Shown here: piece by piece, positions 1 through 59,415 of the stretch
Layout: the number at the start of each line of letters is the position of its first letter
Numbering within the stretch: the first letter of the stretch is position 1
Source: Leptotrichia shahii
Lineage (GTDB): Bacteria; Fusobacteriota; Fusobacteriia; Fusobacteriales; Leptotrichiaceae
DNA length: 64,000 bases
Direction of reading: 5' to 3'
NCBI RefSeq assembly: GCF_008327825.1
Contig: NZ_AP019827.1
Coordinates: forward strand, 124,001-188,000
The notes under the pieces: model-generated
Told to the model about the DNA's origin: nothing
Database searches by the model: none
What the model saw: the letters and a program-made list of their open reading frames with translations, nothing else
Position numbers and translations under genes: made by a program

Positions 1-3000
1 GATTTTGTTATAAAAGAGTTAGAATTTTGGAATATTACTAAAAGAATTGAAAAAGTAAAAAAAGTTAATAATGAATTTCTTGAAAAGAGAAGAAATAGAA
101 CATATATAAAATCTTATGTACTATTAGATAAGCACGAAAAATTTAAAATAGAAAGAGAAAATAAAAAAGATAAAATTGTAAAATTTTTTGTAGAAAATAT
201 AAAAAATAATAGTATAAAAGAAAAAATAGAAAAAATTTTAGCAGAATTTAAAATAGATGAATTAATAAAAAAATTAGAAAAAGAACTAAAAAAAGGAAAT
301 TGTGATACAGAAATTTTTGGAATATTTAAAAAACATTATAAAGTTAATTTTGATTCGAAAAAATTTTCAAAGAAATCTGATGAAGAAAAAGAACTATATA
401 AAATCATATATCGATATTTGAAAGGAAGAATTGAAAAAATATTGGTAAATGAACAAAAAGTCAGATTAAAGAAAATGGAAAAAATAGAAATAGAAAAAAT
501 TTTAAATGAAAGTATATTATCTGAAAAAATTTTAAAAAGAGTTAAGCAATATACGTTAGAGCATATTATGTATTTAGGGAAATTAAGACATAATGATATA
601 GATATGACAACAGTAAATACTGATGATTTTTCTAGACTTCACGCTAAAGAGGAATTGGATTTAGAATTGATTACTTTTTTTGCTTCTACCAATATGGAAT
701 TAAATAAGATTTTTTCTAGAGAAAATATAAATAATGATGAAAATATAGATTTCTTTGGAGGAGATCGAGAAAAAAATTACGTACTTGATAAAAAAATTTT
801 AAATTCAAAAATAAAAATAATAAGAGACTTAGATTTTATAGATAATAAAAATAACATTACAAATAATTTTATTAGGAAATTTACAAAGATAGGAACAAAT
901 GAAAGAAACAGGATATTACATGCGATTAGCAAGGAAAGAGATTTACAAGGAACGCAAGATGACTATAATAAAGTCATAAATATAATTCAAAATTTAAAAA
1001 TATCAGATGAAGAAGTGTCAAAAGCATTAAATTTAGATGTAGTATTTAAAGATAAAAAAAATATAATTACTAAAATAAATGATATTAAAATTTCAGAAGA
1101 AAATAATAATGATATTAAATATTTACCATCCTTTTCTAAAGTACTTCCTGAAATATTAAATTTATATAGGAATAATCCTAAGAATGAACCATTTGATACT
1201 ATAGAAACAGAAAAAATAGTATTAAATGCTTTAATATATGTGAATAAAGAATTGTATAAGAAATTAATTTTAGAAGATGATTTAGAAGAAAATGAAAGTA
1301 AGAATATATTTTTACAAGAATTAAAGAAAACTTTAGGAAACATTGATGAAATAGATGAAAATATTATAGAAAATTATTATAAAAATGCTCAGATTTCTGC
1401 TTCAAAAGGTAATAATAAAGCTATTAAAAAATATCAGAAAAAAGTAATAGAATGTTATATTGGATATTTGAGAAAAAATTATGAGGAACTTTTTGATTTT
1501 TCAGATTTTAAAATGAATATTCAAGAAATTAAGAAACAAATAAAAGACATTAATGATAATAAAACTTACGAAAGAATAACTGTAAAGACTAGTGATAAAA
1601 CTATAGTAATAAATGATGATTTTGAATATATAATTTCAATATTTGCACTGTTAAATAGTAATGCGGTTATAAATAAAATTAGAAATAGATTTTTTGCAAC
1701 ATCAGTTTGGTTAAATACTTCAGAATATCAAAATATTATAGATATTTTAGATGAAATAATGCAATTAAATACTTTGAGAAATGAATGTATAACTGAAAAT
1801 TGGAATCTTAATTTAGAAGAATTTATTCAAAAAATGAAAGAGATAGAAAAAGACTTTGATGATTTTAAAATACAAACTAAAAAAGAAATTTTTAATAATT
1901 ATTATGAGGATATAAAAAATAATATATTAACTGAATTTAAAGATGATATTAATGGTTGTGATGTTTTAGAGAAAAAATTAGAAAAAATTGTAATTTTTGA
2001 TGATGAAACTAAATTTGAGATAGATAAAAAATCGAATATATTACAAGATGAACAAAGAAAGTTATCAAACATAAATAAAAAGGATTTGAAAAAAAAGGTT
2101 GATCAGTATATAAAAGATAAAGATCAGGAAATAAAGAGTAAAATATTGTGTAGAATAATATTTAATTCTGATTTTTTAAAAAAATACAAAAAAGAAATAG
2201 ATAATTTAATAGAAGATATGGAATCAGAGAATGAAAATAAATTTCAAGAAATATATTATCCTAAAGAACGTAAGAATGAATTATATATTTATAAAAAGAA
2301 TTTATTTTTAAATATTGGAAATCCAAATTTTGATAAAATTTATGGATTAATTTCAAATGATATTAAAATGGCTGATGCAAAATTTTTATTTAATATTGAT
2401 GGTAAAAATATTAGAAAAAATAAAATATCTGAAATTGATGCAATATTGAAAAATCTAAATGATAAACTAAATGGATATTCTAAAGAATACAAAGAGAAGT
2501 ATATAAAAAAATTGAAAGAAAATGATGACTTTTTTGCAAAAAATATACAAAATAAAAACTATAAATCATTTGAAAAAGATTATAATAGAGTTTCTGAATA
2601 CAAAAAAATTAGAGATTTGGTAGAATTTAATTATTTGAATAAAATAGAAAGTTATTTGATAGATATAAATTGGAAACTTGCTATTCAAATGGCTAGATTT
2701 GAAAGAGATATGCACTATATTGTAAATGGGCTAAGAGAATTAGGAATTATTAAGTTAAGTGGCTACAATACTGGAATAAGTAGAGCTTATCCTAAGCGTA
2801 ATGGATCTGATGGCTTTTATACAACAACAGCATACTATAAATTTTTTGATGAAGAATCTTATAAAAAATTTGAGAAAATATGTTATGGATTTGGAATTGA
2901 TTTGTCTGAAAATTCTGAAATTAATAAGCCGGAAAATGAAAGTATTAGAAACTATATTTCACATTTCTATATTGTAAGAAATCCGTTTGCTGATTACAGT

Positions 3001-3285
3001 ATTGCAGAACAAATTGATAGAGTTTCTAATTTATTATCATATAGTACACGTTATAATAATTCAACTTATGCAAGTGTATTTGAAGTATTTAAAAAAGATG
3101 TGAATTTAGATTATGATGAATTAAAGAAAAAATTTAAACTTATCGGTAATAATGATATACTTGAAAGATTAATGAAACCTAAAAAAGTTTCTGTTTTAGA
3201 ATTAGAAAGTTATAATTCTGATTATATTAAAAACTTGATAATAGAACTTTTAACAAAAATAGAAAATACGAATGATACGTTATAA
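1..3285 (+). CDS. cas13a: CRISPR-associated RNA-guided RNase Cas13a (C2c2), N-terminus cut off by the window edge
   Basis: Effector of a type VI-A system: it processes its own pre-crRNA and, once a crRNA pairs with target RNA, cuts RNA with two HEPN domains. The frame is open from base 1, so 1094 C-terminal residues are visible and the start lies outside. HEPN1 shows RNRILH at visible residues 302-307 (nt 904-921). HEPN2 shows RNYISH at 983-988 (nt 2947-2964). With 295 residues missing, as in the known 1389-residue L. shahii protein, these become R597/H602 and R1278/H1283, the published catalytic residues. The rest is lysine-rich and helical, with Helical-2 and linker regions between the HEPN domains. 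An internal ATG-like start near 418 is not the real start because the frame continues upstream. cas1 follows directly. The identification is by recognition from memory, without a search. Confidence 0.97.
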   Translation, partial: DFVIKELEFWNITKRIEKVKKVNNEFLEKRRNRTYIKSYVLLDKHEKFKIERENKKDKIVKFFVENIKNNSIKEKIEKILAEFKIDELIKKLEKELKKGNCDTEIFGIFKKHYKVNFDSKKFSKKSDEEKELYKIIYRYLKGRIEKILVNEQKVRLKKMEKIEIEKILNESILSEKILKRVKQYTLEHIMYLGKLRHNDIDMTTVNTDDFSRLHAKEELDLELITFFASTNMELNKIFSRENINNDENIDFFGGDREKNYVLDKKILNSKIKIIRDLDFIDNKNNITNNFIRKFTKIGTNERNRILHAISKERDLQGTQDDYNKVINIIQNLKISDEEVSKALNLDVVFKDKKNIITKINDIKISEENNNDIKYLPSFSKVLPEILNLYRNNPKNEPFDTIETEKIVLNALIYVNKELYKKLILEDDLEENESKNIFLQELKKTLGNIDEIDENIIENYYKNAQISASKGNNKAIKKYQKKVIECYIGYLRKNYEELFDFSDFKMNIQEIKKQIKDINDNKTYERITVKTSDKTIVINDDFEYIISIFALLNSNAVINKIRNRFFATSVWLNTSEYQNIIDILDEIMQLNTLRNECITENWNLNLEEFIQKMKEIEKDFDDFKIQTKKEIFNNYYEDIKNNILTEFKDDINGCDVLEKKLEKIVIFDDETKFEIDKKSNILQDEQRKLSNINKKDLKKKVDQYIKDKDQEIKSKILCRIIFNSDFLKKYKKEIDNLIEDMESENENKFQEIYYPKERKNELYIYKKNLFLNIGNPNFDKIYGLISNDIKMADAKFLFNIDGKNIRKNKISEIDAILKNLNDKLNGYSKEYKEKYIKKLKENDDFFAKNIQNKNYKSFEKDYNRVSEYKKIRDLVEFNYLNKIESYLIDINWKLAIQMARFERDMHYIVNGLRELGIIKLSGYNTGISRAYPKRNGSDGFYTTTAYYKFFDEESYKKFEKICYGFGIDLSENSEINKPENESIRNYISHFYIVRNPFADYSIAEQIDRVSNLLSYSTRYNNSTYASVFEVFKKDVNLDYDELKKKFKLIGNNDILERLMKPKKVSVLELESYNSDYIKNLIIELLTKIENTNDTL

Positions 3286-3314
3286 GAATGAAATTTATAA
3301 GGAGTATGATTAAA

Positions 3315-4229
3315 ATGCCCAATATAATTCACATAACAAGGGCTGATGATTTGTCAATATCGAATAATCAGCTTATAATGGTTGATGAAGACAATAATGA
3401 TGAGAAAAATAAGATTTCTTTGAATGATATATCTGCGATAGTTATTGAAAACTGCTATTGTAAGATTAGTGCGATTTTGCAGTTGAGGCTGGTGGAAAAT
3501 AACATTCCGATTATTATTTGCAACGAGAAACATCAGCCTGAAATTCATTCGCTGGGATTATTTAATCATTTTCAAGTGACTTTACGAATAAATGAGCAGA
3601 TTGAGTGGGAAAAAGAGAAAAAGGAAAAATTGTGGAGCAGGATAGTGGAGAATAAGATTGAAAATCAAAGAGCATTGTTAGAGTATCTTGAAAAAAGTGA
3701 TATTTCCATTGAAAGACTGAAAACATATAAGGAAAACTTGAAAAAAGATGATGCGAGTGCAGAACATCAGGAAGCAATAGCTTCAAGGATATATTTTCAG
3801 GAATTGTATAGTAATAGTTTTAAAAGATTTGATGAAGATGGAGTGAATTCTGCACTTAATTATGGATATATGATTTTAAGAGCTATAATATCATCAAAGA
3901 TTGTAGCAAAAGGATTTCATCCAAGTTTAGGATTACATCATAAGTCACAGTTTAATGCCTATAATTTTTCTGATGATATAATAGAGGTTTTTCGTCCTAT
4001 GGTGGATTATCTTGTTTATATGTACAAGGATATTTTGAATGAAGTGAAATTAAGTAAGGAAATAAGGCAAAAAATACTTCTTGTAGCACAGCAGAAGGTA
4101 TTATTTAACAATAAGAAATATGATTTTTTCCAAGCGGTAGACTATTATTTGGATAGTATACGAAATTATTTTGTAAAAGATGAAGAAGTGATAATTCCGA
4201 CATTGAGCGTGATGGACTATGAGTATTGA
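3315..4229 (+). CDS. cas1: CRISPR-associated endonuclease Cas1
   Basis: Integrase subunit that, with Cas2, inserts new spacers at the leader end of the array. The 304-residue protein has the Cas1 fold order: a beta-rich N-terminus, then a helical catalytic part. Likely metal ligands are E153 (in EAIASRIYF), H208 (in the GLHH segment) and E224 (in DIIEVFRP). This type II-like arrangement is known for VI-A loci. I chose ATG 3315 because AAGGAG at 3299-3304 precedes it; an in-frame ATG at 3288, three bases after the cas13a stop, lacks a ribosome binding site but cannot be excluded. The end overlaps cas2 by 11 nt, so cas13a, cas1 and cas2 form one operon. Confidence 0.95.
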   Translation: MPNIIHITRADDLSISNNQLIMVDEDNNDEKNKISLNDISAIVIENCYCKISAILQLRLVENNIPIIICNEKHQPEIHSLGLFNHFQVTLRINEQIEWEKEKKEKLWSRIVENKIENQRALLEYLEKSDISIERLKTYKENLKKDDASAEHQEAIASRIYFQELYSNSFKRFDEDGVNSALNYGYMILRAIISSKIVAKGFHPSLGLHHKSQFNAYNFSDDIIEVFRPMVDYLVYMYKDILNEVKLSKEIRQKILLVAQQKVLFNNKKYDFFQAVDYYLDSIRNYFVKDEEVIIPTLSVMDYEY

Positions 4230-4536
4230 GTATTTTGGTCTGCTTATGTATGATTTTCCTATGCAGACAGATGTTGAGAGATTTGAATATAGGACTTTTA
4301 GGAAAAAATTGATAGAAAAGGGATATTATCAGCTTCAAAAATCGGTATATATAATGAGGTCGAAAACAAAAGAAAAAATCGAACTGGCAGAAAAACAGTT
4401 ATCAATGCTCGCTCCAGAAAATTCATCAATCCGTTCCATTATCCTGACAGAAGATCAGTTTCAAAAAATGAAGGTACTTGCAGGAGAAGTGACAATGGGA
4501 GAAAAAATTTCACAAAACAAAATATTGGAATTTTGA
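4219..4536 (+). CDS. cas2: CRISPR-associated protein Cas2
   Basis: Small structural partner of Cas1 in the adaptation complex, 105 residues, the usual Cas2 size. The first strand contains LLMYDFP with the conserved Asp of the ferredoxin-like fold. The next helix (about residues 22-34) is followed by a basic stretch and the LQKSVYIM strand typical of the family. The start overlaps the end of cas1 by 11 nt, which suggests translational coupling. The array leader begins immediately after the stop codon, the standard order of an adaptation module next to its array. Confidence 0.94.
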   Translation: MSIEYFGLLMYDFPMQTDVERFEYRTFRKKLIEKGYYQLQKSVYIMRSKTKEKIELAEKQLSMLAPENSSIRSIILTEDQFQKMKVLAGEVTMGEKISQNKILEF

Positions 4537-4675
4537 AAAATCAAAAAATATGGTATAATAGTATAGGGTGGTTCTATATTATTAATAAAGAGAAAAATAG
4601 GATTGAAAGTATTGAAAATAAAGACAAAATAGAAAAATTAGAAATAAATATCTCATCAGCAAGAAATTAGGATGG
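4533..4675 (+). promoter_or_regulatory. Leader and promoter of the type VI-A array
   Basis: TTGAAA at 4533-4538, overlapping the cas2 stop, and TATAAT at 4554-4559 within TGGTATAAT (extended -10) are 15 nt apart. The predicted start near 4566 would give about 110 nt of A-rich leader RNA before the first repeat. The direction agrees with the repeat orientation and with the degenerate repeat lying at the far end. Transcription start is inferred, not shown. Confidence 0.7.
4566..4579 (+). other. Anti-repeat-like segment in the array leader
   Basis: GGGTGGTTCTATAT is the reverse complement of repeat positions 2-14 (ATATAGACCACCC) with one extra T. It begins at the predicted start of the leader transcript. 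In RNA it could pair with the 5' part of any repeat, across the region where Cas13a trims pre-crRNA. Cas13a is known to need no tracrRNA, so function, if any, would be something else. A 13-nt match could also be a relic. Confidence 0.45.
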
Positions 4676-5036
4676 GATATAGACCACCCCAATATCGAAG
4701 GGGACTAAAACTAGATTGCTGTTCTACCAAGTAATCCATATTGATATAGACCACCCCAATATCGAAGGGGACTAAAACTAGATTGCTGTTCTACCAAGTA
4801 ATCCATATTGATATAGACCACCCCAATATCAAAGGGGACTAAAACTGATAACTAAAGGGGAAAAGGTAAAAATGAGGATATAGACCACCCCAATATCGAA
4901 GGGGACTAAAACGACAAATCTATCTGAATAAACTCTTCTTTTTCGATATAGACCACCCCAATATCGAAGGGGACTAAAACTCTAAAGAATTATCTATTCT
5001 GTCTTTTAAATTGATATAGACCACCCCAATATCGAA
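4676..5036 (+). CRISPR. Type VI-A CRISPR array, 36-nt repeat, 6 repeats and 5 spacers
   Basis: Repeats lie at 4676-4711, 4743-4778, 4810-4845, 4877-4912, 4945-4980 and 5013-5036. The unit is 36 nt, starts GATATAGACCACCCC and ends GGGGACTAAAAC; the CCCC/GGGG arms form the crRNA hairpin known for L. shahii Cas13a. The third repeat has a G-to-A change in the loop. The last repeat keeps only its first 24 nt, marking the leader-distal end. Spacers are 31-32 nt. The first two (4712-4742, 4779-4809) are identical, so there are four distinct spacers. No spacer matches another part of this window by eye. Confidence 0.97.
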
Positions 5037-5062
5037 AAGTGATATTTAATAAAAATAACTTC

Positions 5063-5099
5063 TGAGTGAGAATAAAATTTCAATTCTTGCTCATTTTTT
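5063..5099 (+). terminator. Rho-independent terminator after the type VI-A array
   Basis: TGAGTGAGAAT at 5063-5073 pairs with ATTCTTGCTCA at 5083-5093 (11 bp, two G-U pairs), followed by six T. It would end the pre-crRNA transcript and shield thrS from it. Confidence 0.75.
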
Positions 5100-5169
5100 A
5101 TTGTTTTTTGAATATGGTTGCTTGGTTGTTCTGAAACGAAAATTTTTGGAGATGTTTTAAATTTTTAGG

Positions 5170-5198
5170 TTGAAAAAAAATAAGAATTATACTATAAT
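5170..5198 (+). promoter_or_regulatory. Promoter of thrS
   Basis: TTGAAA at 5170-5175, 17 nt, TATAAT at 5193-5198. Close to consensus and the only strong promoter between the array terminator and thrS. Confidence 0.75.
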
Positions 5199-5212
5199 AA
5201 ATAATTATGCGA

Positions 5213-5232
5213 TTAGGCTAACTAGAGCCTAA
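5213..5232 (+). promoter_or_regulatory. Leader hairpin before thrS, possible attenuator
   Basis: TTAGGCT (5213-5219) and AGCCTAA (5226-5232) form a 7-bp stem with a 6-nt loop, followed by TTTTATTT. It begins about 8 nt after the predicted transcription start. It may be an early attenuator or a translational control site; no T-box consensus was recognised in this short leader. Confidence 0.4.
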
Positions 5233-5266
5233 TTTTATTTGAAAAAGATAGAAAGAAGGAATTGAA

Positions 5267-7177
5267 ATGATAGAAATGATTTTGCCTGATGGTAGTAAAA
5301 GACAGTTGGAAAATCCGATGACTGTTGTGGAGTTTGCAAAAAGTATTGGGAGCAGTCTTGGGAAGGCAACCGTTGGGGCGGTAATTGACGGTGTGCAAGT
5401 TGACTCATCTTATGTTATTGATAAATCTGGAGAAATTGAAATAATTACTAATACAAGTGAAAAGGGAATTGAAATTATAAGACATAGTGCGGCTCACATA
5501 ATGGCTCAAGCTGTGCAAAGATTATTCCCAAATACAAAAGTTACAATAGGGCCTGTTATAGAAAATGGATTTTTCTATGACTTTGATCCCGAAAGACCTT
5601 TTACTGAAGAAGATTTGGAAAAAATTGAAAATGAAATGAAAAAAATAGTAAAAGAAAATTATCCTTTTGAAAGAAGTGAAATGAGTGCCGAAGAAGCTAA
5701 AAAATTCTTTGCTGAAAAAGGTGAAACTTATAAAGTTGAAATAATTGATGACTTGGGAGTTGACAAAGTTAGCATTTATAAACAGGGAGAATTTGTGGAT
5801 TTATGCCGTGGAACACATGTTCCGTCAACTGGATATCTAAAAGCGTTTAAATTAATGTCAACTGCTGGAGCTTACTGGCGTGGAGATTCAAACAATAAAA
5901 TGCTTCAAAGAATTTACGGAGTGGCTTTTGCAACTAAAAAAGAGCTGGATGACTATTTGACAATGATGGAAGAAGCTGAAAGAAGGGATCACAGAAAATT
6001 AGGAAAACAGCTTAACTTGTTTTTCTTGGATGAACATGGACCAGGATTCCCGTTCTTTATGCCAAAAGGTGTGGAATTGTTTAATAAATTACAGGAAATC
6101 TGGAGAGTTGAGCATAAAAAAAGAGGCTATCAGGAAATAAAGACTCCAATTATGCTGGATAAGGAATTATGGGAAATTTCTGGACACTGGTTCAATTACC
6201 GTGAAAATATGTACACATCAACAATTGATGAAAAAGAGTATGCAATAAAGCCTATGAACTGTCCGGGTTCAATAATTGCCTACAAGAATAATTTACATTC
6301 ATACAAGGATTTACCATTAAAATACGGAGAAATGGGGCTTGTTCATAGACACGAATTTAGTGGAGCTTTACACGGGCTTATGAGAGTTAGGGCATTTACA
6401 CAGGATGATGCTCACGTTTTCTGTACAAAAGAGCAAATTGAGGAACAAATTATCGAGATTATTGATTTATACGATAAATTCTATACTTTATTCGGATTTG
6501 AATATCATATTGAATTATCGACAAAACCTGATAAAGCAATTGGTTCAGATGAAATTTGGGAAATGGCGGAAGCTAATTTAAAATCAGCTTTGGAACACAA
6601 AGGAATTGATTACAAGTTAAATCCTGGAGATGGAGCATTTTACGGTCCAAAAATTGACTTTAAAATGAAAGATTCAATTGGAAGAATTTGGCAATGTGGA
6701 ACAATCCAGTTAGACTTCAATTTGCCACAAAGATTTGAAATGAGCTACATTGGTGCGGATGGAGAAAAACATGAACCAGTAATGATTCACCGTGCAATGT
6801 ACGGAAGTTTGGAAAGATTCCTTGGAATTTTGATTGAACATTATGCAGGAGCTTTCCCAACTTGGTTAGCGCCAGTTCAAGCAAGAATTTTAACAATTTC
6901 TGATGAACAAGTGCCTTTTGCAAAAGAAGTATTTGAAAAACTTCAAAATGCGGGAATTAGAGTTGAACTTGACACAAGAGTGGAAAAAATTGGATATAAA
7001 ATTAGGGAAGCAAATGGAGATCAAAAAATACCAGTTCAATTGATTATTGGTAAAAACGAAGTTGCAAATAATGAAGTAAATATGAGAAGGTTTGGTTCAC
7101 AAGAAAGCAAAAATGTGTCAGTTGATGAAATTTTAAATATTTTGGTGGAAGAATCAAAAGTTCCGTTTAAAAAGTAA
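5267..7177 (+). CDS. thrS: Threonine-tRNA ligase
   Basis: Class II synthetase that charges tRNA-Thr in the cytoplasm; 636 residues, the normal full length. Order: TGS domain (about 1-62), editing domain with H73-x3-H77 and C180-x3-H184, catalytic core with motif 1 around 260-290, motif 2 at RHEFSGALHG (361-370), motif 3 at GSLERFLG, then the anticodon-binding domain (about 535-636). Zinc ligands C332, H383 and the His of MIHRAMYG correspond to the E. coli C334, H385 and H511. AAGGA lies 5-9 nt before ATG 5267; a second Met at residue 4 is less likely. It is a single-gene unit after the CRISPR locus. Confidence 0.97.
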   Translation: MIEMILPDGSKRQLENPMTVVEFAKSIGSSLGKATVGAVIDGVQVDSSYVIDKSGEIEIITNTSEKGIEIIRHSAAHIMAQAVQRLFPNTKVTIGPVIENGFFYDFDPERPFTEEDLEKIENEMKKIVKENYPFERSEMSAEEAKKFFAEKGETYKVEIIDDLGVDKVSIYKQGEFVDLCRGTHVPSTGYLKAFKLMSTAGAYWRGDSNNKMLQRIYGVAFATKKELDDYLTMMEEAERRDHRKLGKQLNLFFLDEHGPGFPFFMPKGVELFNKLQEIWRVEHKKRGYQEIKTPIMLDKELWEISGHWFNYRENMYTSTIDEKEYAIKPMNCPGSIIAYKNNLHSYKDLPLKYGEMGLVHRHEFSGALHGLMRVRAFTQDDAHVFCTKEQIEEQIIEIIDLYDKFYTLFGFEYHIELSTKPDKAIGSDEIWEMAEANLKSALEHKGIDYKLNPGDGAFYGPKIDFKMKDSIGRIWQCGTIQLDFNLPQRFEMSYIGADGEKHEPVMIHRAMYGSLERFLGILIEHYAGAFPTWLAPVQARILTISDEQVPFAKEVFEKLQNAGIRVELDTRVEKIGYKIREANGDQKIPVQLIIGKNEVANNEVNMRRFGSQESKNVSVDEILNILVEESKVPFKK

Positions 7178-57585: not shown

Positions 57586-59415
57586 ATGTGTGGTATTGTA
57601 GGTTACATTGGAGCAAAAAATGCTCAGGAATTTGTTATTGACGGGTTGGAAAAATTAGAGTACAGAGGATATGATTCGGCTGGGATTGCTGTTAATACTG
57701 GAAGTGAAAAATTTGAGATTGTGAAAAAAGTGGGAAGATTGCAGAATTTGGCTGATGAGCTGAAGAAACATCCGCTTTCAGGGACAGTTGCGATAGGGCA
57801 CACAAGATGGGCGACTCACGGTAAGCCATCTGATGAAAATTCACATCCTCATTTTAACAAGGATAAGACATTAGTTGTTGTTCACAATGGAATTATTGAA
57901 AATTATCTGGAATTAAAAAAAGATTTAATTGCAAAAGGGTATGAGTTTAAGTCAGAAACTGATACAGAAGTTGTAGCACACTTATTGGATGAATTTTATA
58001 CAGGAGATATACTTGAAACAGTAAAAAAATTGCTGAAAGTTATAAAAGGTGCTTATGCACTTGGAATTATGTCTGTAAAAGAACCTGACAGAATTATTGC
58101 GGCTAGGAAAGAAAGTCCGTTAATAGTTGGAATTGGAAAGGGAGAAAACTTTATTGCATCTGATATCCCTGCTATTTTGAAATATACAAGAGATGTATAT
58201 TTGATTGAAAATAATGAAATTGTGGAAATAAAAAAAGATTCTGTAAAAATTATGGATATAGATGGAAATGAGATAAAAAGAGATATAATTCATATTGAAT
58301 GGGATTTGGAAGCTGCTTCTAAAGGTGGATATGAGTACTTTATGGAAAAAGAGATTTTTGAACAGCCAGAAGTCCTTGTGAAAACATTAAACAGCAGAGT
58401 TGATGAGAATTATAATATTAATTTTGATGATGCAGGGCTTACAAAGGAATATTTGAGCGGAATTAACGATATTTATATTGTGGCTTGTGGAACTGCTTAT
58501 CATGCAGGACTTGCTGGAAAGCATATTATTGAGAAAAAAACGAGAATACGTGTAGATGTTGATATTGCTTCTGAATTTAGATATAGAAATCCTGTAATTG
58601 ATGATAAGGCACTGGTTATAGTGTTAAGCCAGTCTGGAGAAACTTTGGATACGCTTGAAGCTATGAAGGAAGCTAAAAGACACGGTGCAAGAGTTGTTGC
58701 GATTACAAATGTGGTAGGATCTTCAGTGGCAAGAGAAGCAGACCATGTTATCTATACTTGGGCAGGACCTGAAATTGCCGTTGCCTCTACAAAGGCATAC
58801 ACTACTCAAATGGTAATTTTAAACTTGATGGCAATTGATTTTGCATATAAATTTGGAAAAATTACAAAAGATGAAGCAGCTGAGGATATTAAAAAATTGT
58901 ATGAAGTGGAACAAAGTATTCAAAAAATGCTGGAATATGATGAAAAAATCAAAGATGTTGCAGATAAAATCAAGGATAGTGAAAGCATGTTCTATCTTGG
59001 GCGTGGACTTGATTATGTAATCGCTGTGGAAGGTGCCCTAAAATCTAAAGAAATCTCGTATATTCATTCAGAAGCCTTTGCTTCAGGGGAATTGAAACAC
59101 GGAACTATAGCATTAATTACAGATGGAGTACCAGTTGTTGTAAATGCTACACAATCTGACTTATTTGAAAAATCAGTATCAAACATAAAGGAAGTTACAT
59201 CAAGGGGTGCTTATGTCATTGCAGTTGCAAAAGAAGGAAATACAGTTGTGGAAGAAGTGGCAGATGAAGTATTCTATATTCCAAATGTGGCAGATGATTA
59301 CGCAGGATTCCCTACAATCGTAATTCATCAGTTATTGGCATACTATTTATCAAAATTAAAGGGAAATGATGTTGATAAACCAAGAAACTTGGCAAAATCA
59401 GTAACTGTAGAATAA
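57586..59415 (+). CDS. glmS: Glutamine-fructose-6-phosphate aminotransferase (isomerizing)
   Basis: 609 residues, full length. Makes glucosamine-6-phosphate, the first step to UDP-GlcNAc for peptidoglycan and LPS. N-terminal class II glutaminase: Cys2 nucleophile in MCGIVGYIG, RGYDSAGIAV, GHTRWATHG. Two SIS domains: ACGTAYHAG, SQSGETLDTL and, near the end, the conserved NLAKSVTVE. AAAGGAGAAGAG precedes ATG 57586. Controlled by the ribozyme upstream. Confidence 0.98.
   Translation: MCGIVGYIGAKNAQEFVIDGLEKLEYRGYDSAGIAVNTGSEKFEIVKKVGRLQNLADELKKHPLSGTVAIGHTRWATHGKPSDENSHPHFNKDKTLVVVHNGIIENYLELKKDLIAKGYEFKSETDTEVVAHLLDEFYTGDILETVKKLLKVIKGAYALGIMSVKEPDRIIAARKESPLIVGIGKGENFIASDIPAILKYTRDVYLIENNEIVEIKKDSVKIMDIDGNEIKRDIIHIEWDLEAASKGGYEYFMEKEIFEQPEVLVKTLNSRVDENYNINFDDAGLTKEYLSGINDIYIVACGTAYHAGLAGKHIIEKKTRIRVDVDIASEFRYRNPVIDDKALVIVLSQSGETLDTLEAMKEAKRHGARVVAITNVVGSSVAREADHVIYTWAGPEIAVASTKAYTTQMVILNLMAIDFAYKFGKITKDEAAEDIKKLYEVEQSIQKMLEYDEKIKDVADKIKDSESMFYLGRGLDYVIAVEGALKSKEISYIHSEAFASGELKHGTIALITDGVPVVVNATQSDLFEKSVSNIKEVTSRGAYVIAVAKEGNTVVEEVADEVFYIPNVADDYAGFPTIVIHQLLAYYLSKLKGNDVDKPRNLAKSVTVE

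Follow-up and report, generated by a model that had tools for sequence, protein, structure and literature searches.

Pre-crRNA is processed by Cas13a alone, with no need of a tracrRNA, and LshCas13a and its relatives are RNA-targeting enzymes in wide use. The tracrRNAs of type II and some type V systems are separate small RNAs, with an anti-repeat, that lie near the array and are required for processing. Closest to the case presented here are systems in which the leader itself pairs with a repeat. A 2026 study found that leader-repeat hairpins in VI-B, VI-BtA and VI-F prevent extraneous crRNA (ecrRNA) from being made from repeat 1, and VI-A was used there as a negative control in which no leader-repeat hairpin was seen (p = 0.92; PMC13187072). 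The criteria applied were complete opening of the repeat stem, a window of 180 nt upstream and the pooling of all VI-A arrays. According to the same study VI-A crRNAs are repeat-guide, with extraneous crRNA coming from the terminal repeat, and decay of the terminal repeat is a route to ecrRNA suppression in repeat-guide systems. For II-A it cites Liao et al. 2022, where the leader was proposed to interact, possibly, with repeat 2 as well. VI-A is a subtype to which the published explanation of leader-repeat pairing cannot apply and for which the recent survey reported no such pairing; the literature yielded no paper that assigns a role to the native leader of an LshCas13a-type array.

The Leptotrichia shahii locus and its leader

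The window, that is the whole 64 kb stretch of L. shahii DNA that was analysed, carries cas13a, cas1 and cas2 in that order, followed by a leader of 139 nt and a short CRISPR array. The locus is type VI-A CRISPR-Cas13a, with an effector above the family cut-off and repeats bearing a VI-A handle. It is not an array of the guide-repeat kind, in which extraneous crRNA comes from the first repeat. The full-length product of the effector gene is LshCas13a, which has 1389 aa in the genome and matches PDB 5wtj/7dmq over its whole length; R597, H602, R1278 and H1283, the HEPN catalytic residues named in PMC11042736, are invariant in Cas13a alignment A1. The features are as follows.

1 to 3285, + strand: 3' part of cas13a (NCBIfam NF038188, 436.5 bits against a cut-off of 150); the gene begins upstream of the window
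3288 to 4229, + strand: cas1, type II-like Cas1 family (TIGR03639, 251 bits)
4219 to 4536, + strand: cas2 (TIGR01573, 51 bits)
4551 to 4559, + strand: extended -10 promoter element TGGTATAAT, from the sequence; similar stretches occur throughout the genus
4566 to 4675, + strand: predicted leader RNA, from the position of the -10 box
4566 to 4580, + strand: leader anti-repeat GGGTGGTTCTATATT, forming a duplex with repeat positions 1-14 in which one T is bulged; its predicted place is at +1 or just beside it
4648 to 4657, + strand: left arm of the junction inverted repeat, ATATCTCATC, from the fold; an ATCCCAT/ATGGGAT-like core is found in other leaders
4671 to 4680, + strand: right arm of the junction inverted repeat, GATGG-GATAT, GATGG being the leader end
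4676 to 4980, + strand: five full-length repeats with spacers, consensus GATATAGACCACCCCAATATCGAAGGGGACTAAAAC, the repeats starting at 4676, 4743, 4810, 4877 and 4945
5013 to 5048, + strand: terminal repeat, positions 1-24 intact and the 3' half (GGGGACTAAAAC) lost
5064 to 5100, + strand: probable intrinsic terminator, a GAGTGAGAAT/ATTCTTGCTC stem followed by a T-rich run, read by eye; its loop of 9 is beyond the limits of the terminator scan

The -10 box is TATAAT at 4554-4559, preceded by TG at 4551-4552, and a -35-like TTGAAA at 4533-4538 is weakly spaced, 15 nt from the -10. Given this short spacing the array promoter looks like one of the extended -10 type, and a DNA search found close copies of the promoter stretch at many sites in genomes of the genus. 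From the -10 box and the preceding TG, transcription is expected to start at about 4565-4567. Within the array the third full-length repeat has a single G to A change, and repeat-spacer units 1 and 2 are identical, a 67-nt duplication at 4676-4809. The duplicated spacer had no match elsewhere in 13 genomes of the genus (<=3 mismatches) and no exact match in viral contigs, and the leader and array (window 4400-5270) had no match in Rfam. The terminal repeat, without GGGGACTAAAAC, has no Cas13a handle and still holds the target of the anti-repeat.

The last 28 nt of the repeat are presumably the mature form in LshCas13a crRNA, in which case the enzyme cuts off positions 1-8 of each repeat. These same 28 nt appear in a plant CRISPR/Cas13 paper, PMC6315463, and a mature form of this length fits the remark in PMC8209922 that the 5' flank left by LshCas13a is shorter than that of other U-cleaving orthologs.

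A preliminary description of this DNA had claimed that GGGTGGTTCTATAT (4566-4579) is complementary to repeat positions 2-14 with one bulged T; this proved correct, and T4580 extends the duplex by a G-U wobble with G1 of the repeat. The duplex with repeat 1-16 has an energy of -20.3 kcal/mol, a value attained in none of 1000 dinucleotide-shuffled leaders, whose mean is -8.1 (p = 0.001). Among the ~64,000 overlapping 17-mers on the + strand of the window it is the best complement of the 5' half of the repeat, the runner-up on that strand, at 59204, reaching -18.3. The further claim, that the segment forms the 5' end of the leader transcript and can pair across the processing region, is supported, with the 5' end at 4566 as a prediction.

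Conservation and covariation of the anti-repeat

To collect related arrays with VI-A-type repeats, the genus was searched with DNA and the family with a pattern, and the leaders of these arrays were then read. The evidence is comparative and computational, and comes from ten promoter-bearing leaders of seven genomes (G000-G005 and G021) in two genera of one family. An anti-repeat lies 4-10 nt past the -10 box in all ten of these VI-A-type leaders; the preliminary description had named lack of the complementarity in related leaders as evidence against its reading, and no promoter-bearing leader lacked it. The conserved gene of ~277 codons that adjoins four of the arrays is taken here to be purH. 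The anti-repeat of these four arrays is (G)GGGTAATCTATATC, that of L. shahii GGGTGGTTCTATATT, and those of other cas2-adjacent arrays of the genus TGGTAGTTTATATC and GTGGTGGTTTATATT; G001 has GGGATAATCTAAATC, G004C5c has GGGGTAATCTAAATC and G021, from another genus, has AGGTGGTTCATATC.

In every one of the ten the best leader/repeat duplex is formed by leader nt 2-18, with repeat 1-16 as the target and likewise with the whole 36 nt, and the best duplex falls there in just 2.5-8% of shuffled leaders. The combined p for anti-repeat:repeat-1 pairs was 2.5e-12, a figure to which related leaders contribute without being independent, and pairing of the leader, taken from its predicted start, with repeat 1 was above chance with a Fisher p of 2e-9, likewise inflated by related leaders. 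Base-pair tests were weaker on the published window of 180 nt upstream than on the leader from its predicted start, which may be part of the reason for the published VI-A negative; the anti-repeat in these sequences marks a family-level exception that need not contradict the pooled result. Pairing was weak in three leaders (G004C4, G001 and G005C9), and no anti-repeat was seen in three arrays without a recognised leader promoter (the second G004C4 array, the second G005C9 array and G004C5b). Four leader groups cannot be aligned with one another outside the anti-repeat, and the spacing between the anti-repeat and repeat 1 varies over 63-103 nt, a 50-nt hairpin insertion included, as expected for RNA pairing.

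Pair counts were taken on ten concatenated anti-repeat/repeat rows, in which 87% of cells were paired, compared with 30-41% after sliding the partners. All 80 aligned cells at repeat positions 1-8 were paired and 37 of 40 at positions 11-14, while positions 9-10, adjoining the Lsh cut, were the loosest (9/20); the alignment shifts the G000 bulge by one column, so that its pairing is undercounted. Five pairs showed changes on both sides, among them U-A to A-U at position 4 and U-A to C-G at position 6, and the covariation score was matched by 2 of 500 shuffles. Matched changes can be read directly from the anti-repeat/repeat pairs CTATATC/GATATAG, CTAAATC/GATTTAG and TCATATC/GATATGG. The sequences are related and the counts are not independent events; at the level of lineages the compensations number about three (positions 4, 6 and 10). 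We consider it highly probable that the element is a selected anti-repeat acting at the level of RNA.

Several features of individual arrays were also recorded. The leader of G004 C5c (L044) has a hairpin of ~50 nt, AGAGTGTGTCTG...CAGACACACTCT, between the anti-repeat and the array start at 5640, apparently a tolerated insertion. The G004 C4 array (L037) is split at about 1398-2750 by ~1.35 kb of other DNA into a leader-proximal part and a distal part, the latter without a recognised leader promoter, and the newer units of G003 have a shifted repeat, ACTACCCT. The single hit in a scan of genome contigs was Leptotrichia sp. oral taxon 879 F0557, whose array is G005 C40. No similar Cas13a was found in plasmid and phage collections, no similar leader in the plasmid collection and no Cas13a in viral contigs, and matches of repeat fragments in viral contigs, one per contig, were read as chance.

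Pairing partner and candidate roles

The partner of the anti-repeat could be repeat 1 (R1), repeat 2 (R2) or the degenerate terminal repeat, a choice that minimum-energy folds of long RNAs cannot decide. When the leader is folded with R1 alone the anti-repeat takes R1, and the R1 handle stem is opened in 6 of 10 leaders. With R2 included, equilibrium folds leave R1 mostly free, its own stem at 0.77-0.98 in seven of eight, and place the anti-repeat on R2; with two or more repeats R1 is usually held by the junction inverted repeat together with its own stem. When the arrays of G000 and G004C5c are folded in full, 13.6-13.9 pairs of the anti-repeat fall on the terminal repeat.

The junction inverted repeat spans the leader/repeat-1 boundary (ATATC.CATC/GATGG-GATAT) and is also seen at the leader ends of L037, L049, L043 and L044. 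Its outer pairs do not track the change of the repeat in the GATTTAG arrays, and it may therefore serve spacer integration as a DNA feature, or compete as a hairpin. Terminal repeats usually keep the 5' half, and nearly all are without the GGGG strand or the 3' tag. Those of L037, L038, L039, L041, L042, L044 and L049 are changed to AAGT, AAGA, AAAC, AGGA etc., and in that of G004C5a the stem is intact and ACT has become AGT. Such decayed terminal repeats are consistent with silencing of extraneous crRNA in VI-A. As VI-A crRNAs are repeat-guide and the terminal repeats are decayed, the anti-repeat needs a reason other than ecrRNA suppression.

The reading ranked first is that the anti-repeat, acting in cis, protects the 5' end of the pre-crRNA and masks one repeat, and in its full form it is offered tentatively, as a possible mechanism. 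The first ~15 nt of the transcript would pair with a repeat not yet processed, be it R1, R2 or the terminal one, covering positions 1-8, which LshCas13a removes, and positions 11-14 on the 5' side of the handle stem, with a loop or bulge usually at or beside the cleavage site within the duplex. A helix would then close the 5' end with next to no overhang (~0-3 nt as predicted from the -10 position), which would shield a long untranslated pre-crRNA from 5'-end-dependent decay by RppH and RNase J, and one repeat would be kept masked until Cas13a removes its positions 1-8. Since that removal would leave the lock without a partner, protection would be confined to unprocessed RNA. Position is the constraint that tells most: an anti-repeat at the predicted first nucleotides of a transcript is what hiding a 5' end needs. 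RppH of B. subtilis requires at least two unpaired nucleotides, and occlusion of the 5' end stabilises RNAs where RNase E is absent and RNase J is used (PMC3997798). A homologue of RNase J is present in the genome (629 bits), and it is these facts, together with the 5'-end position, that place end protection with masking first.

Pairing is mainly with the part of the repeat that is lost on cleavage by Cas13a, so that the anti-repeat can distinguish unprocessed from mature crRNA. It may be a processing sensor that pairs only with repeats still carrying positions 1-8, a reading we hold to be less likely than the protection itself. Pre-crRNA would then be protected and silent when Cas13a is scarce, and released and consumed when it is present, and the supply of precursor in VI-A systems would be tied to the level of the effector. 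By the same token a decoy for mature crRNA, one of the options in the preliminary description, is unlikely, the best-conserved target (1-8) being absent from the mature 28-nt Lsh repeat. Two further options named there, 5'-end protection and autoregulation, are kept as candidates. VI-A-type arrays with a leader and an anti-repeat occur in G003 (L041) and G002 (L042), in neither of which a cas13a was found, and release by Cas13a would not be the sole use of the anti-repeat there.

Below 5'-end protection with masking we rank, in order, blocking of repeat 1, a DNA-level site, a 5'-3' panhandle and relic or chance. A leader-repeat hairpin that blocks Cas13a at R1, and so adjusts either processing or how much of the newest crRNA is made, on the pattern of II-A and VI-B, would agree with the opening of the R1 handle stem in 6 of the 10 single-repeat folds; the same architecture was shown to block processing in VI-B2, and its II-A counterpart promotes the first crRNA as that work is reported in PMC13187072. 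Against this, the extraneous crRNA of VI-A arises from the last repeat and blocking R1 would cost only the newest crRNA, the published test of VI-A was negative, the fold at equilibrium usually frees R1 and occupies R2 once R2 is present, and such blocking does not call for an element at the very 5' end, so that we regard it as unlikely. An inverted partial copy of the repeat beside +1 might also work as DNA that is bound by Cas1-Cas2 or a regulator, with the effect of repressing the array promoter or marking the leader. It does overlap the promoter, complementarity looks alike in DNA and RNA, and the leader end has an inverted repeat of its own, but the spacing to R1 varies without clear helical phasing and the 1-nt bulge of G000 and the U-G pairs at 1, 7 and 10 better fit RNA pairing; no one of these points is decisive, and a DNA-level role seems improbable.

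The prospects are also poor for a panhandle in which the anti-repeat sits mainly on the degenerate terminal repeat and closes the whole pre-crRNA. Terminal repeats that have usually lost GGGGACTAAAAC yet keep the 5' half offer a target free of a competing stem, and this is where the full-array folds of G000 and G004C5c place the anti-repeat. Decay of the 3' half only is, however, also expected from ecrRNA suppression, G022 and G001, the latter with 8 nt of its terminal repeat left, offer poor targets there, and co-transcriptional folding reaches R1 and R2 earlier. A relic, as the preliminary description had allowed, or a chance complementarity, functionless in either case, would sit easily with an effector that needs no tracrRNA and an element of which no experimental effect is known, but the position kept in ten of ten leaders, the covariation at five pairs and the four unalignable leader groups make it very improbable indeed.

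Two other candidates were rejected. A leader peptide is not a common function, as frames of 26-27 codons are found only in G004C4, G005C40 and G021. The frame MKIWKTQINSKNNNQNILSLKTNDGI in the leaders of G004 C4 (L037) and G005 C40 (L038) has AAGGAG upstream and ends at TAG within repeat 1 (GATATAG), the G005 C40 copy differing by one in-frame codon, and the frame of G021 has 26 codons. As for a separate trans-encoded anti-repeat of the tracrRNA kind, no evident conserved copy was found outside array leaders.

Comparison with described anti-repeats and 5' stems

An anti-repeat that lies at the predicted 5' end of the transcript and covaries with the repeat says that the leader acts on the pre-crRNA, and judged by its sequence conservation it probably controls or protects the precursor RNA as a working part. 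It is one short motif, open to mutation and rescue in E. coli. Like the tracrRNA anti-repeat it lies near the array, but it is in cis in the pre-crRNA leader, is ~15 nt long and pairs with a part of the repeat that is removed from the mature crRNA. Meeske and Marraffini in 2018 reportedly described a type VI anti-tag that is also complementary to the repeat, at its 3' end, whereas the anti-repeat here matches the 5' end; even with all 36 nt offered the 5' half wins over the last 8 nt. The stabilising stems of ompA and aprE, as cited in PMC3997798, resemble what is predicted here in having a 5' end in a helix with little overhang, but the candidate partner here, a CRISPR repeat, lies at least 63-103 nt downstream, and stabilisation is a proposed effect.

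The stem-loop of II-A (Liao et al. 2022, as cited in PMC13187072) likewise involves a leader pairing with a repeat near the array start, and differs in its dependence on tracrRNA and RNase III, its guide-repeat crRNAs and its effector. The hairpins of VI-B, VI-BtA and VI-F (PMC13187072) share with the present case a leader paired to a repeat, a type VI system and no tracrRNA; the opening of the handle stem predicted for them is seen here in 6 of 10 leaders folded with R1 alone and mostly not once R2 is included. Here, unlike there, the system is VI-A and repeat-guide, extraneous crRNA arises at the opposite end of the array, and the anti-repeat is predicted to be 5'-terminal, has positions 1-8 and 11-14 as its target and may act on a repeat other than the first. 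Such an anti-repeat would separate the question of why leaders pair with repeats from the suppression of extraneous crRNA.
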